Below, in pieces: positions 14,941 through 23,237 of a stretch of DNA of 64,000 nucleotides; the stretch's first letter is position 1; each line of letters starts with the position of its first letter. The notes beneath the pieces were generated by a model that did no database searches, was not told the DNA's origin, and saw nothing but the letters and a program-made list of their open reading frames with translations. Source of the stretch: Endocalyx cinctus (lineage: Eukaryota > Ascomycota > Sordariomycetes > Amphisphaeriales > Apiosporaceae); the NCBI GenBank assembly GCA_001600455.1, contig BCKC01000006.1, positions 2,976,001-3,040,000 on the forward strand. Direction: 5' to 3'. Made by a program: the position numbers and the translations under genes.

Positions 14941-17722
14941 TCACAATGGTCTGTACTCCTTTCTAACCCGAGGAGCAATTTTTTGTCTTTCGCGTAACTC
15001 ATCTACCCATTTCGTGAGATCCGAAGCTTCTCTTGCAGTGCAGGAATGAAATACACTCCCTCTATTCCACATCACGACTCCGTCATTGTTGTTTAGCTTG
15101 CTGACGCTTGGTTCAGACGGGTGAAGTATGCTGTGGTATATCATATTGTCGTGCAAATAATCTTCAACTATTGTCCTGATCGAGATCTCTTCCTCCAACT
15201 TTGGTCCTTCTCCTAGTATGAATAAGCAGAAATCATTGCGCTGCTGTCGTATAGTACCATCTGAGTCTCTCTTCAGTGCTTGCACCAACATTGTGTTGTG
15301 CGTAGAAGGTGGTGCACGAAGAGGACCCCAATTAGCACCGAGTCCGGCGATAGAATATTGAGCACCCTCGACAAGAATTTGGAGGATTTCTTCTCGGCTC
15401 TTTTCGCATCTCCGGCATGAAGATGAGTGTTCGCGCTGATCCATCACGTGAACTTTCCGGTATGATTCTCGTGCAAAAGACCGGTTAGCCGTTCTACGAC
15501 GATATAGAGATTCCCAAGCCTTTATTTTGCCTTTTACATCAGCAGCAGACATCCTAGAACCTCTCTTCAGCAAAATTTCACGTTGCTCCAATAAAGATTT
15601 TGGCTGTGTATTCTCAGGTACTCGCCGTCGCTTAGCGTCAGAGTATTTTTTCACTATATGCGTGATTGAAGAACGAGGCAAGTTTTTGAAACTGAGGTAC
15701 TGGATTGTTGGGCTTGCGACCGATTTGTCTTCGTTCACTCCAATGGACATGAGCGTACTCGATACGGCGGAATGGGTAACTTGAGAGGGAGAGTCAGAAA
15801 GAAGGCACTCGATTGCTTCGTGGAGCACCGTGCTTGCACAGCTTGATATTCTTGGCAGCTCCTTGCTTTTGAACTTCGAGTTAGTCGCAGCACATTCTTG
15901 GATAATTGCGAGGGCTGGCTTCGCAACAGCGAAACAGGTTAGTTCTCTGACAATGTCCCAAGATGTGTTGAAAAAGCAGCGATACTCAAGTATAACGTAG
16001 AGTTCTATGTCCGATGGCCTGGTAAACACCGAGTTGTACGTCCTCTTCTCACCAGTCCACATATACTCTATTTCATCTAGAGCATACTGACTGGTAGCTA
16101 TCAAAGCTCCCGGGGAGCATAACTTAGTCTCCAATTCAAGAGCGTGGGATGTGCTTTGCGTAAGGGCTTCGGTAGGTCCTCCAATCAGGATCAGAAGACT
16201 TTCAACATTGTCTTCCGTAATGCAAAGACAGTTGAAATGGAAATTGATCTGGGACGCCGATCGAATATGACCAAGTGTCGTATCTGGTATGTCCATGGAA
16301 ATAATGTTTCGGTGCGTCAACAGTGCAGGATCAACATCAGCTGTTTGGGCGGTAGACTCATCCGTTTCGGAAATGCTTCCCACGTCCTCTGCATTGTCAA
16401 ATTGACTTGAAGGCTGATGCATCCACTCAAATACCCTATTTCTATTTCTCGCGGCTGAGGAGTAGTAACTTTCAAGATCCACGCTGACATCGTCGGCATC
16501 TCTTCCAGTTTCCAAAGACTTCAGCGCTCTGAGGACAGAAGGTCTGTATGTATCCCTTGCCCAGTCGACAATATAATCGATGATGAGTATGAGCTGCAAG
16601 GTTCCGTTCATTGTCGTCAAATCTCCACTCCAGAGGGGATGGATCTTGTAGAGTGTTTTGCAGTTATTCGGGTCGATATAACACCCGTAGACTTTCCAAT
16701 CACTGCCTCTGTTTCCAAGAAACCATACTAATGATTCTTCATTAGCACCTCCTGTGGCGACGCGGAAATTCCGTTGGAGGTTCAATAGTTTCCGGATTGG
16801 AAAAGCAGTTTGCATTCCCATGTCATGGAAGCCATCTTTGCTGGTGTCGGATTTTGCTTCTAGAACAAGAAAAGGGAGAACTGATGGATTCTTTTTGCAT
16901 TTGAAGGGACTGTAGGCCATAAGATGACCTCTTCCGTTTGTGGCTCCGTGGAGTCCCATCAACAGTTTCTCCACTGTCCCCGTGTGCTTCAAACCAATGA
17001 TGCGATCCGGGCTTCTGTTTCTCAGTAAACCTTTAAGTTCGTCATCAAGCATAACGACTTCTTCAACACGGTCATCAAACAGTGGACTGAGACCCGACTC
17101 GTAGCTGTGGACTGTGTTAGTATGCAATCTGGTTAGAACGGAAGTGATGTAATTATATACTGGTCTTGAGGACGCATTTCCGGGGGGCAACGGCATGGTT
17201 GACGATGTTCTCTGCGTTCTTCCAAGTCTTTCATCCATTTGCTCTCCTTGGATAAATGGCCGGAGGTCTCAATTTCTGATCTCCAGACTCGTTCGCGGCA
17301 ATTGGGGCTTTTCTACACGTTAACTAGGCTAATCTCAGGCGTAATAATTGATGCGTATAGGAAAGGGGAACTTGGTTTCAAACTCACCACGCAATCTCCA
17401 CCGAAAACCTATGGAGAATGTCATTTTCGATATGCAAACGCCATCCGCTCTCTTTTGGTCTGACAACCGTTGCCAGTTCGTGTGCCTTTTTCACAATATA
17501 CCGAGTTCGAGCCTTGATCTTTCGGGTCCAGGGTTTTTCGGTCGTGAGCGTGTCCACGTCGTTATAATATGTGTCAAACTGCTTTCTCCCAAGCTCCTGA
17601 ATGTCCCTGAACGAGTTTTTATGGACCTCTGGCCACTTCTCGTTCGATTGCATGAAGATGATCCCGTAAGATTTAGCGAGTCGTCGCAGCATCCGGGACT
17701 CGTCTTCATACTCGTCTGCCAT
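14941..17722 (-). CDS. Large fungal protein with PD-(D/E)XK nuclease-like motif
   Basis: Proposed exons on the minus strand are 17722-17388, 17312-17161 and 17104-14941, about 880 residues in all. The second intron (17160-17105, 56 nt) has GTATAT, TACTAAC and CACAG and joins the frames exactly. Exon 2 carries CRERVWRSEIE, a motif I associate with fungal PD-(D/E)XK-like proteins. Exon 3 holds SPDRIIGL (Asp codon 17007-17005) and LVLEAKS (Glu 16860-16858, Lys 16854-16852), matching the PD...ExK catalytic pattern, followed by QTAFPIRKLL. The long C-terminal part is unrecognised. Problem: the strong donor after GCGTG at 17388 and the acceptor at 17313 leave the frame one base off and create TGA. 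Either another splice site is used, a base has been lost, or the locus is decaying. The function in fungi is unknown; nuclease activity is inferred from the motif only. Confidence 0.65.
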
Positions 17723-18753: not shown

Positions 18754-19610
18754 TGCTACCGGTAGCAGGCGGTAGCAAATACGGGAGGTGAGCTTGCAGC
18801 CCACAGAACGTCCTGAGTTTACAATTTTTACTATATTACATAAAAAAGATAAAATAAGAAAACGACAGGGGTTTTTAAAGATAGTTCCGTGGAAGCGTGT
18901 AGAAGACCCTTCGTAAACTCAGGCATAAGGAACGGTTATTTCATATATTTAGTCATTCATTTACTCAGCAGATATCAATCTAAGTTCAACCCTAGCAATA
19001 GGATTAATAAATTAGCAGAAACCTCACTCGAATACCAAGTCAAGCCTCTTTAGTACTTACGTCATTTACTTCTCCAAAGAACACAAACCCATTGGTCAAA
19101 TATCTACTTAGGTGGGTATCTGTTCGTGGCACCTCTTTCGTGGGGTTAGCGAGGGTTCAGAAATACTTAAGTCTTAAATTAGTTATTCTCTTCATGTTTC
19201 GTTACGGCAGCTGAAAGGCCAGGGAAATAAAGGAGCCCGGTAGGATAATAACGGGTAGTAATTTTTTCTTTTTCGGACTTTTATTCTTCTCATTTTCTTC
19301 TTACGGTGGTTTTTAAGATAGCGTAGTTTTTTCTTTTTTTTAAAATGTGCAACGCGAGGACACGTCATGGCAAAATACCTCGGAGTTGTTAGGTTACGGG
19401 GGGTGAAACCTACTTTAACCAAGGCAATCACACCAAAGGTTAATATACATTTCTCCCACCTTTTAAAGTTTACACTCCTCCATCTCTTGATAGTAATGAG
19501 GAGCATATAAATCAATCATTTCCCCATAGTTATTCTCATCCGTGATAAGGCCATTCACTCGCGAGCTTGCTTTATTCAAATCAACTTCAGCGACAAGAGA
19601 GCAAATCGAC

Positions 19611-22600
19611 ATGGAAGATGCAGTGACAAGTGCCCAGCGGGGCCTGTTGATGCGTCCCGTTTTTGGACAGATGCTAACCATCCATCTGAAAGACCATACC
19701 AAAGAGACCGAAGCTGAGCTACGGTCCATCGTGAAGGACTTGGATGCTGTGGTTGAGAACCGTGATTCCCGATGTGGTCTGATCGTTGCGTTCTCACCCA
19801 ACTTATGGAACGAGTGGACGGGTGCAGAAATTCAAATTTCGACAAAGGTGCTTGACGGTAATCCCAACAAATTCTGCAACACGCAAGGGGATGTATTCTT
19901 TTACTTGAAGACCCCAGACCACAAAACCGCAGAAGACCTTTTGAAAGATACGAAAGCACGTCTAGGAAATCTCGCGGGAAAAGACGGCATCGAGACAATC
20001 ATCGCAGGGAAGCGAGAGGATGGTCGGATCGTGGGCGGACGGTACTTGGACGGTACCTCGAACCCGAACGACCCCGTTAGTCTGAGTGAAGATATCCTCT
20101 GTGGGAAGGTGAGTGAAGATATTCTCTGTGGGAAGGCACAAGGCTCGTGCTTTGGTTTTACACAGAAGTTTAAATTAGACTGGCCGAGCATTCTTTCATA
20201 TTCATCAGACAGTCTGAATGAGATCGTTGGCCGCAAGAAGGACGGATCAATCCTTTCACAACATGCTGCACATGGGCACATCCACCGTGCTAATGTGCGT
20301 GATACGAATGGTGATCAGCGCAAATTGATTCGCCAAGCTCTACCCTTCAGCACCACGGAGAAATCATCAGGCCGTGAAGATGGTATTATGTTTTTTGCTT
20401 TCTGCAATGAGCAACAACGGTTCGAAGATATTCTCAAGAACTTACTTGGAGATACAAAGGATATCCCATCTGATCGATTGATGCAACTTGTCTCAGGTGT
20501 CAGCGGCGGTTATTGGTACATTCCCTCGGCAAAAGAACTGGGCACTGCCTCTGTCCAGGGAGTAGAAGATATATACGAAGATCCTCATTGGAAAGTTCGC
20601 AACCCCAAGAATCGATATCTCTTCTACAATACACAGGATTATCTTCATCAAATGGGCCAGAACCTCTATGAAGGTGGCGACCCACCTACGCCTCGTGTTC
20701 TCAGCTTGATGGCAAGATCTTTCAATCACTGGCGTGACGGGTGGGTGCATCGCGCTCACATGGATCGTTTGCCTCATCTCTCCAGTATCCTGGAAGATAC
20801 ATCCATGAGAAAGAGAATGGAAGATGCTTCTGAACAGAAATCTTTAGAACACAGCTCGGTCCCAACTAGAAAGGCAGTGGCCAATTTTATCACGTTGGCA
20901 GACCTCCTTTCAGATCCTGATTCGAAAACCGCTAAGGCTTATAGCCTTGTGAGAATACATAGCAACGAACTAATCGTAGGCCAAATCCCCGACTTCACTT
21001 TCGGTAGAGGCAAAGAAGTTGTCCCATATCTCAACAAGGATGAAACCATTAAATCGTGGCTGAAATTCTCGCTCAATGAGTTTTCAGCCATGGGACATGT
21101 GGTACCAGATTATGAGCACCTTGTCCGGCATGGGTTGCGTTCAATGATCGATGATCTGAAGGAGCGTAGGCACCGAATTCCGGAATCCGCTGATTTCTTC
21201 AACTCTGCGATTACGTCGCTCAGGGGCGTTCAAGAATATCTGAGAAATTGGGCTAGAATTGCGCTTGCTGCAGGTAATCAAATTGATTGTACAAACCAGG
21301 CAAATATGGAGATGGTGGCGCAACGTCTTCACAAACTTGTCGACCAAGCTCCGGAGACGTTTCACGACGCAGTTCAACTCATCTTCTCCTTCCATTGCTG
21401 TTTGCATCTGGTTGGAGAGCTCACACCATTTAGTCGTCTCGACCAAATCCTTTGGCCATTCCTGAACAAGGACAAGGCTGGCCCAACTGCACGGGAGCTA
21501 GTCGACGCCCAAGAGATTATCGATTGCTTATTCCTCAAGATTGGCGAGAATGCCTTTGTCGATCGTGCATTCATATTTGATCATGTAACTTATGGAACAA
21601 CCTCTGTCAACGGCATTGGACATAATTTTTCGCAAGGCGGCGGCATCAATCAATGGTGCCAGCAGATCACGGTTGGAGGATATAAAGCTGAGAACGGAGC
21701 TCCCCAAGATGCCTCAAACCCGGTCACCATGTTGTTCCTGAAGGCAGCTCGTCGTATTCCCGTAAATGCGCCCACGGTTTCTCTTCGCGTTCATAAAGAC
21801 TCCAAGAAAGACATTCTCAAGGAAGCTGCTAAAACGATCCTATCAGGAGGTGCTCAGCCGATCTTATACAATGATGACAAGCTGTGTAAAGGTCTCCACA
21901 AATCTGGTATGTCAACCGATACGGTGAGTGAGGCATGGTCTCGCGATTATGCTGCCGATGGGTGCTTCGAACCTATGTTTGCTGGCGCCTCTGAGTTCAC
22001 TTTCAATAATGTGTCCTTGTTACATGCTCTTGAACAAACGATCAATCGAGGAACGACCTACGGGGCGGCAGGTCCAGAACAGCTCAGCGGCCTCAAACAA
22101 ACATTTCGTTCGCCTGAACCAAGAAACCTGAGCACATTTGAACAGCTCCAAGATGTTTTTCTAGAGCAGCTCGAATGGCTTACCGTACAATGTTACGACT
22201 TAATGCTGAACAACTACGGCAACTTAGCCAATATTTGCCCCAGTCCCCTACTTTCCACATTGATTAACGGTTGCATGGAGAAGGGTCTTGATCACACCAA
22301 TGGCGGTGCACGATTTCATATCATTGCGCCGCTATTCGTGGGCGTATCAAACACAATTGACGCGCTATACTCTATTTGGAAACTTGTGTACGACAATCGT
22401 ACAGCATGCACGACTCTCGAGGAGCTACTGCTCTGCTTGATCACTGATTGGGGGTTCAACATGATTGAGCCTTATCAAAATCAGTTGCTCGGACCTGTCG
22501 AGGCGGCCGAGCGTGCCGAACACTATCGAGAACTCCGTGAGCTAGTGCTTCAGTTCCCGAAGTGGGGAAGCGGCAGCGATGATGCTGATCTTCAGAACAC

Positions 22601-23237
22601 TGGGGAATGGCTCATGAAGAATATCGTTAGGCTAGGACGAGACGTTCTGTGTGATCCACATCCAGCACTTGCTGCCCAGCTGGATGTAATCAAGCAGAAA
22701 CACGGTCATGATTTCCAGTTCACAGTCACGCCCGGCATCGGCACGTTTGAGGGCTATGTTGGCGATGGGGTTGATTGCGGCGCATCTGCCGACGGTCGCC
22801 GGAACGGCGCACCCATTGCCTCGGATCTCTCTCCGGCGCCAGGTGCGCAGGATTTGCCCCCAAATCCAGCCTTCCGCAACATCTATCAGGCAATGAAAAG
22901 CTGTAAATCAGAAGACATTGAGATTGGACTTTCCGACGCAGCACCCGTGGATATGAACATCACAGAAGATTTCCCCCTGGATGATCTGGAAGCTTTCATT
23001 CAGGCATTTGCAGCCGGCACTGTGGGAGGCAACCTCGTAACGCTCACTTGCGGTGATCCAAGAACATATGCAGCAGCAAGCAAGGACCCTGAGAAGTACG
23101 ATCTGCTCCGTGTGCGCATGGGCGGGTGGACCGAGTTCTACTCTACGATGTTCCCGGAGCACCAGAAGCAACATCAGCGGCGTCAGTATTTCACACCCAA
23201 CGACGATACGAAAGACGTCACACAGGAGGGATATTAG
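19611..23237 (+). CDS. DyP-type peroxidase fused to a glycyl radical enzyme
   Basis: An uninterrupted 1208-codon frame with no intron; ATG at 19611 is chosen because the frame upstream has only a GTG. Residues about 1-310 are a DyP-type heme peroxidase: GRYLDGTSNP carries the GxxDG motif (D147), HGHIHRANVRD the presumed proximal His (H223), and GIMFFAFCN follows as in the family. Residues about 340-1208 are a glycyl radical enzyme: NELIVGQ, GGGINQWCQQITVGG, the thiyl Cys785 in DGCFEPMFAG, ADGRRNGAPIASDLSPAPG, and the C-terminal glycyl loop RVRMGGW with Gly1172. The Cys-x-Glu pattern resembles the dehydratase/lyase branch rather than true pyruvate formate-lyase, which has Cys-Cys. All key residues are present. 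A 27-bp tandem duplication sits in the DyP part. No activase is seen nearby. The substrate is unknown. Confidence 0.9.
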   Translation: MEDAVTSAQRGLLMRPVFGQMLTIHLKDHTKETEAELRSIVKDLDAVVENRDSRCGLIVAFSPNLWNEWTGAEIQISTKVLDGNPNKFCNTQGDVFFYLKTPDHKTAEDLLKDTKARLGNLAGKDGIETIIAGKREDGRIVGGRYLDGTSNPNDPVSLSEDILCGKVSEDILCGKAQGSCFGFTQKFKLDWPSILSYSSDSLNEIVGRKKDGSILSQHAAHGHIHRANVRDTNGDQRKLIRQALPFSTTEKSSGREDGIMFFAFCNEQQRFEDILKNLLGDTKDIPSDRLMQLVSGVSGGYWYIPSAKELGTASVQGVEDIYEDPHWKVRNPKNRYLFYNTQDYLHQMGQNLYEGGDPPTPRVLSLMARSFNHWRDGWVHRAHMDRLPHLSSILEDTSMRKRMEDASEQKSLEHSSVPTRKAVANFITLADLLSDPDSKTAKAYSLVRIHSNELIVGQIPDFTFGRGKEVVPYLNKDETIKSWLKFSLNEFSAMGHVVPDYEHLVRHGLRSMIDDLKERRHRIPESADFFNSAITSLRGVQEYLRNWARIALAAGNQIDCTNQANMEMVAQRLHKLVDQAPETFHDAVQLIFSFHCCLHLVGELTPFSRLDQILWPFLNKDKAGPTARELVDAQEIIDCLFLKIGENAFVDRAFIFDHVTYGTTSVNGIGHNFSQGGGINQWCQQITVGGYKAENGAPQDASNPVTMLFLKAARRIPVNAPTVSLRVHKDSKKDILKEAAKTILSGGAQPILYNDDKLCKGLHKSGMSTDTVSEAWSRDYAADGCFEPMFAGASEFTFNNVSLLHALEQTINRGTTYGAAGPEQLSGLKQTFRSPEPRNLSTFEQLQDVFLEQLEWLTVQCYDLMLNNYGNLANICPSPLLSTLINGCMEKGLDHTNGGARFHIIAPLFVGVSNTIDALYSIWKLVYDNRTACTTLEELLLCLITDWGFNMIEPYQNQLLGPVEAAERAEHYRELRELVLQFPKWGSGSDDADLQNTGEWLMKNIVRLGRDVLCDPHPALAAQLDVIKQKHGHDFQFTVTPGIGTFEGYVGDGVDCGASADGRRNGAPIASDLSPAPGAQDLPPNPAFRNIYQAMKSCKSEDIEIGLSDAAPVDMNITEDFPLDDLEAFIQAFAAGTVGGNLVTLTCGDPRTYAAASKDPEKYDLLRVRMGGWTEFYSTMFPEHQKQHQRRQYFTPNDDTKDVTQEGY
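20083..20136 (+). repeat. 27-bp tandem duplication inside the DyP domain
   Basis: Two adjacent 27-bp units (20083-20109 and 20110-20136) differ at one base and encode SEDILCGK-V and SEDILCGK-A in a row. The duplication lies 11 residues after the GxxDG motif, keeps the frame, and adds nine residues that ordinary DyP peroxidases would not be expected to have. Confidence 0.9.

Follow-up and report, generated by a model that had tools for sequence, protein, structure and literature searches.

We analysed a stretch of 64,000 nucleotides of the ascomycete Endocalyx cinctus (contig BCKC01000006.1, positions 2,976,001 to 3,040,000; hereafter the window), and within it a single intronless gene (19611..23237, plus strand) whose predicted product joins a heme peroxidase of the DyP superfamily to a glycyl radical enzyme (GRE), of a class held to function in the absence of oxygen only. 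We propose, with a probability that we put at roughly 0.35, that the DyP half uses H2O2 to form or restore the radical of the GRE half, and would in this way replace the radical SAM activase. This reading is favoured because it would account at once for four things: an activase is missing, the GRE residues are intact, related GREs are repeatedly paired with DyPs, and such a gene responds to peroxide.

Between its flanking stops, the frame spans 19530-23237 (1235 codons); read from the ATG at 19611 to the stop ending at 23237, it is a complete open reading frame (ORF) of 1208 aa. Along the plus strand, a DyP domain of the B/P type (about residues 5-312, 19623..20546) is followed by a linker (residues 313-352, 20547..20666) which is outside both matched folds and uncovered by most fold matches, then by the GRE fold (about residues 353-1178, 20667..23144) and by a C-terminal tail (residues 1179-1208, 23145..23234) where an ending of the type FPxHQxQHxRR replaces the canonical GRE one. 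Pfam detects Dyp_perox_C at 145-308 (E 9e-20) and PFL-like at 484-993 (E 6e-95), and the protein passes the NCBIfam model Dyp_perox_fam (116.7 bits for a cut-off of 100.5). The AlphaFold model of the fusion has a pTM of 0.90, and by structure comparison this model matches both a B/P-type DyP and a full PFL-type GRE fold. The motifs are GRYLDG (143-148), HIHRAN (223-228), DGCFEP (783-788) and RVRMGGW (1167-1173). Frame, motifs and Pfam domains agree with the first-pass annotation, which had described, from the letters alone, one frame of 1208 codons carrying DyP and then GRE motifs.

A chance frame or a misassembly is excluded, since the protein search with the fusion gave 222 matches at E<=1e-3, the closest of which, a protein of 1197 aa from Neoarthrinium moseri, is 85% identical and covers 100% of the query. 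Only the best 120 of the 222 matches are listed, many of them nameless.

The conservation of the predicted active sites was followed in a first alignment of the window protein with 107 of the 120 listed proteins (those of at least 1100 aa), in a second one of 110 rows, made of the first set plus two distant fusions, and in a structure alignment of 66 rows. On the heme side, with the roles usual in the DyP family, the proximal ligand His223 (20277..20279) is found in 109 of the 110 rows, the last one having a gap, the distal Arg241 (20331..20333) is found in all of them, and the distal position Asp147 (20049..20051) is D in 104, E in 5 and N in 1. The DyP half is predicted to bind heme and to have peroxidase activity. 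In the GRE half, four positions are unvaried (110/110): His496 (21096..21098), aligned to the GHV histidine of glycerol dehydratase; Cys785 (21963..21965), the expected thiyl-radical cysteine; Glu787 (21969..21971), at the general-base position of dehydratase-type GREs; and Gly1172 (23124..23126), the expected radical-site glycine. The latter is the second G of RVRMGGW and aligns with the G of RVAGY in the canonical motif VRVAGY; its neighbour Gly1171 is equally unvaried. The first-pass annotation had stated that every key residue is present; His223, Arg241, Asp147, Cys785 and Gly1172 are all found in the window protein, and the GRE half retains what glycyl/thiyl radical chemistry requires. 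The earlier reading of the radical motif stands as far as RVRMGGW itself is concerned, but the Pfam model Gly_radical (PF01228) has no match in the window protein at E<=1e-3, which means that the C-terminal GRE region is divergent. The NCBIfam GRE models (PFL, CutC, HypD and others) are likewise all far below their cut-offs, the best being TIGR01774 (185.9 versus 678.2 bits). Trp191, Tyr303, Trp374 and Trp378 are each found in 110/110 rows; in the linker, residue 327 is aromatic in 110/110 and residue 339 is Tyr in 108/110.

By fold, sequence family, proximal His, distal Arg and distal Asp, the N-terminal half belongs to the DyP superfamily; the C-terminal half has the PFL-type fold, the active-site Cys and the C-terminal Gly of GREs; and the whole has the composition of the published DyP-B/PFL family, an N-terminal B-type DyP and a C-terminal PFL-like domain in a single ORF. 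The first-pass annotation could not say whether this architecture had been described. It is already in print, as it is mentioned in two papers, both without a function. The gene dyprx of Chaetomium cochliodes is a DyP-B/PFL fusion with the same domain order and no introns listed, for which a bacterial ancestry was proposed, its function being given as unknown; it responded to H2O2 with a 3-fold and to peracetic acid with an 18.5-fold induction, and the authors suggested a candidate PFL activase of Chaetomium (PMC5041501). The gene g1956 of Xylaria grammica probably encodes a DyP and a PFL-like domain, again of unknown function (PMC8469222). In their available text, the former paper takes a PFL activase for granted, and separate pairings with DyPs or hosts free of activase are described in neither. 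What is new here is the survey of activases in genomes carrying the fusion, the recasting of the fungal "PFL activase" and the pairing of related GREs with other DyPs. In the open literature searched (preprints and subscription journals being outside this search), no report of a peroxidase-activated GRE was found.

The same two-domain order, which the earlier annotation had proposed to look for in other proteomes, occurs in ascomycetes, in beta-proteobacteria and in Chloroflexota; the matches listed name Sordariomycetes, lichen fungi, Andreprevotia, Chromobacterium, Collimonas, Janthinobacterium, Massilia and Chloroflexota. A plasmid search for relatives led to Hymenobacter and to Asticcacaulis, the plasmid of the latter carrying a distant fusion, while a scan of viral contigs found no relative. 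The fusion is rare in bacteria: it is matched in 6 of the 392 genomes of the Collimonas family, centre genome included, and in 4 of the 399 genomes of the order, including the centre genome and G238, where the match is confined to the last 303 residues (C9:91735-92634), away from a contig end, and which has its own PflB/PflA. In a maximum likelihood tree of the GRE half (48 selected rows, midpoint root for drawing only, with long canonical branches of unsure placement), the nine fungal rows group together beside the five beta-proteobacterial fusions, and the other bacterial rows fall outside both. This is in line with the published transfer of the fusion from bacteria to fungi. We also noted solo GREs that belong to the same RVRMGGW clade; they come from marine records of Ruegeria and Roseobacter and from one eukaryote transcript collection (P0282, P0289, P0293 and similar); five other "solo" rows placed inside the fusion clade (P0254, P0258, P0259, P0273, P0275) are possibly cut at contig ends.

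We searched 11 genomes bearing the fusion with the PFLA model. Nine of them carry an uninterrupted full-length ORF; the other two are G238, with its 303 residues, and a Kordia metagenome-assembled genome with a frame-broken copy. As positive controls, ordinary GREs adjoin their activase (pflB-pflA in L083 and L084, the locus L145 described below, and a Moraxella plasmid). Beside the fusion, no GRE activase was detected in any of the nine genomes, and the nearest radical SAM match is at least 47 kb away in the seven of them searched with PF04055 (G001, G002, G900, G913, G984, G991, G995). No GRE activase was found in six of the nine (G001, G002, G900, G913, G984, G991), where the best PFLA matches, of 21.6-32.1 bits, are PqqE in G001 and MoaA in the others, each over the cut-off of its own family. 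In G002 (Collimonas humicola), a gene-by-gene check of the 12 radical SAM matches found no GRE activase among them: 10 pass cut-offs of other families, while L040, which resembles SPASM peptide maturases, and L046, which resembles B12-dependent types, pass none. The PFLA cut-off was passed in two of the 11 genomes, G238 and G382, both times by a PflA next to a canonical pflB, which in G382 it directly adjoins on a contig other than that of the fusion. An NrdG2-type activase is present in G208, G995 and G238, in the first two over the cut-off of that family; G208 and G995 have no PFLA match over the cut-off, nor has G208 one for TIGR02494, a search that did not include G995. G900, G913 and G984 are near-closed, with contigs as long as the stated genome size; G001 and G002 are drafts. 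Since G002, G900, G913 and G991 share their flanking genes, they amount to about one lineage; outside these four Collimonas-like loci, comparing the neighbours among themselves gave scattered matches common to one to three loci.

In the genome of E. cinctus we found seven radical SAM matches: MoaA, LipA, BioB and ELP3 over their cut-offs, TYW1-like and aminomutase-like proteins below them (L013 in this genome is a lysine 2,3-aminomutase-like radical SAM protein), and a seventh protein, L012. L012 scores weakly with PFLA (28.4 bits) and reaches 41.8 bits with NrdG2 for a cut-off of 131; it resembles the PflX/COG1313 type. Proteins of the L012 type are widespread in fungi (7996 matches), and the 120 listed name Trichoderma, Neurospora, Colletotrichum and Claviceps, four genera that are not named among the best 120 of the 222 matches of the fusion, where many rows are nameless. 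At E<=1e-10 the L012 type is present in 9 of the 399 genomes of the Collimonas order and in none of the four with a fusion match, one of these four having the remnant only. L012 as a dedicated activase is hence unsupported by co-occurrence with the fusion. The Chaetomium "activase" presumably corresponds to the L012 type; the fungal "PFL activase" then looks like another radical SAM type. As this type is widespread in fungi and without a match in the four fusion-matching genomes, the published fungal activase is at best unproven.

Related GREs were also found joined to other DyPs. The DyP class letters used here are those we presume, save where a structure title or a paper states them. L144, in a genome from the phylum of Kordia, encodes a DyP-GRE fusion of 1304 aa whose DyP has Alr1585 and DyP2 as nearest structures and is, on this likeness, assigned to the C/D type. 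In the 48-row tree its GRE groups with that of L145, apart from the window family, with a support of 100/100. In L145, the gene directly upstream is a GRE activase (TIGR02494, 184.1 versus 174.35 bits), which means that in this close pair the DyP occupies the place of the activase of its cousin. On a Hymenobacter plasmid (L082:10043-13999), a GRE of the window clade is spread over two overlapping ORFs; after it come a frame-broken DyP and then a PLD-like gene. The first piece of this DyP resembles deferrochelatase; its class is unsure, since the second piece scores best with DyP2 and only then with deferrochelatase. It thus appears that related GREs are linked to DyPs of two classes, perhaps of a third. 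Together with the exchange of activase and DyP between L145 and L144, this points to a functional coupling rather than to an accident of fusion. We also noticed a PF03781 (SUMF1/EgtB-type) gene shortly upstream of the fusion in the Asticcacaulis plasmid (L081:10381-11388) and in L144 (L144:5800-6759), that is on two distant branches.

The mechanism that we propose would run as follows. A fusion acquired ready-made from bacteria would give the fungus a two-domain radical enzyme. H2O2 would oxidise the DyP heme to a high-valent state, the hole would move across conserved Trp and Tyr residues, and Gly1172, or Cys785 directly, would be oxidised, which would start catalysis. Because the activator is tethered to the GRE, peroxide could restore a radical that O2 has quenched. 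That the DyP forms the radical is our supposition, as are the path of the hole and the type of reaction. More broadly, it is possible, if somewhat more doubtful, that a heme peroxidase has replaced the activase more than once, with different DyP classes, and has made radical chemistry restartable in aerobic cells. An analogy is offered by ribonucleotide reductases, of which class I uses an O2-dependent cofactor and the anaerobic class III a glycyl radical. The first-pass annotation was right about the two domains, but its two suggestions for their roles (a DyP removing peroxide around the radical site, or a radical domain recruited for chemistry without a classical glycyl radical) leave out the DyP half as generator of the radical.

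Several observations weigh against our reading. H2O2 and O2 damage known GREs. The distal Asp147 is replaced in 6 of the 110 relatives. Solo GREs exist in the same clade, so that the DyP may be dispensable in part of it. Both Hymenobacter genes are broken or split, and the evidence on activases for Hymenobacter and L144 concerns the locus alone. The six genomes negative for an activase represent about three lineages, including Azohydromonas (G001) and G984, and two of them are drafts; the count of six in nine, moreover, covers carriers of the fusion only. A search with profile models may miss an unfamiliar activase, SPASM-type proteins such as L040 of G002 being present, and in three of the nine genomes an action in trans of NrdG2 or PflA is conceivable. 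Finally, L012 could serve the fusion, its relatives being annotated as PFL activase.

The first suggestion of the earlier annotation, the removal of peroxide around the radical site, leads to an unlikely but conceivable alternative, in which a classical GRE has its radical SAM activase encoded at another locus and the DyP scavenges H2O2 for survival in air. The induction by peroxide fits protection, NrdG2 or PflA is present in three of the nine genomes, and candidates exist in fungi: L012 in the window genome and the PFL activase proposed in Chaetomium (PMC5041501). But a DyP which only scavenges peroxide leaves a classical activase necessary, and none was found in six of the nine genomes nor near the fusion in any of them; furthermore, the L012 type is without match in the four fusion-matching genomes of the 399, and the fungal genera differ among the matches listed. 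As to the second suggestion, it is likewise unlikely that the GRE half is a radical-free fold, which would bind a substrate or partner oxidised by the DyP or carry out a non-radical elimination. The lack of a detected activase in six of the nine bacterial hosts fits such a fold, as does the divergent C-terminal region unmatched by PF01228, but the GRE fold is complete, and the presence of Cys785, Glu787 and Gly1172 in 110/110 proteins is hard to explain without radical chemistry. Quite improbable, lastly, is a two-step enzyme, where the DyP would oxidise a substrate and hand the product to the GRE, in whatever way the latter is activated. Fusions often join consecutive steps, and GREs of this group are paired with at least two DyP classes; these different classes would however need to yield the same product, while known DyPs are broad one-electron oxidants.

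Among known GRE types, the GRE half looks most like the dehydratases (GCxE motif). With the B12-independent glycerol dehydratase (1r8w) and other dehydratase-type GREs it shares the whole fold, GCxE, the GH(V) histidine and the radical-site Gly; it differs from them by the fused DyP, by RVRMGGW in place of RVAGY and by its C-terminal ending. The substrate-side positions H281 and S282 of 1r8w align with Glu and Leu in the window protein. The DyP half has the fold and the heme-side residues of the B/P-type DyPs YfeX, KpDyP and DtpB, which stand alone, without a GRE. The GRE half is like that of PflB-PflA pairs, unlike which no dedicated activase is seen with the fusion.

Around the fusion in the window, 16 other ORFs were scanned, some of them in two versions, the fungal exons being read as open frames only. 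The Pfam families matched are P450, FAD_binding_4, alpha/beta hydrolase, ecdysteroid-kinase-like, GH79C, DUF3176 and MPAB_Lcp; the remaining ORFs, among them one of 765 aa at 14941-17238 on the minus strand, gave no match. A biosynthetic cluster around the fusion has no support among them. In bacterial loci, the Azohydromonas fusion has a manganese catalase gene (L002:6119-7105) at a distance of about 3 kb, and the broken Kordia fusion has a PF04185 phosphoesterase (L004:8062-9693) just upstream and an eCIS_core protein downstream.

Ascomycetes and several groups of bacteria thus share a GRE that has been preserved intact, that is linked in more than one case to a heme peroxidase, and for which an activase often escapes detection. 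This calls into question the view that such enzymes work only without oxygen. If a peroxidase is able to start a GRE, demanding radical reactions could be carried out in air and triggered by H2O2, and the substrate of the enzyme would become a tractable question.

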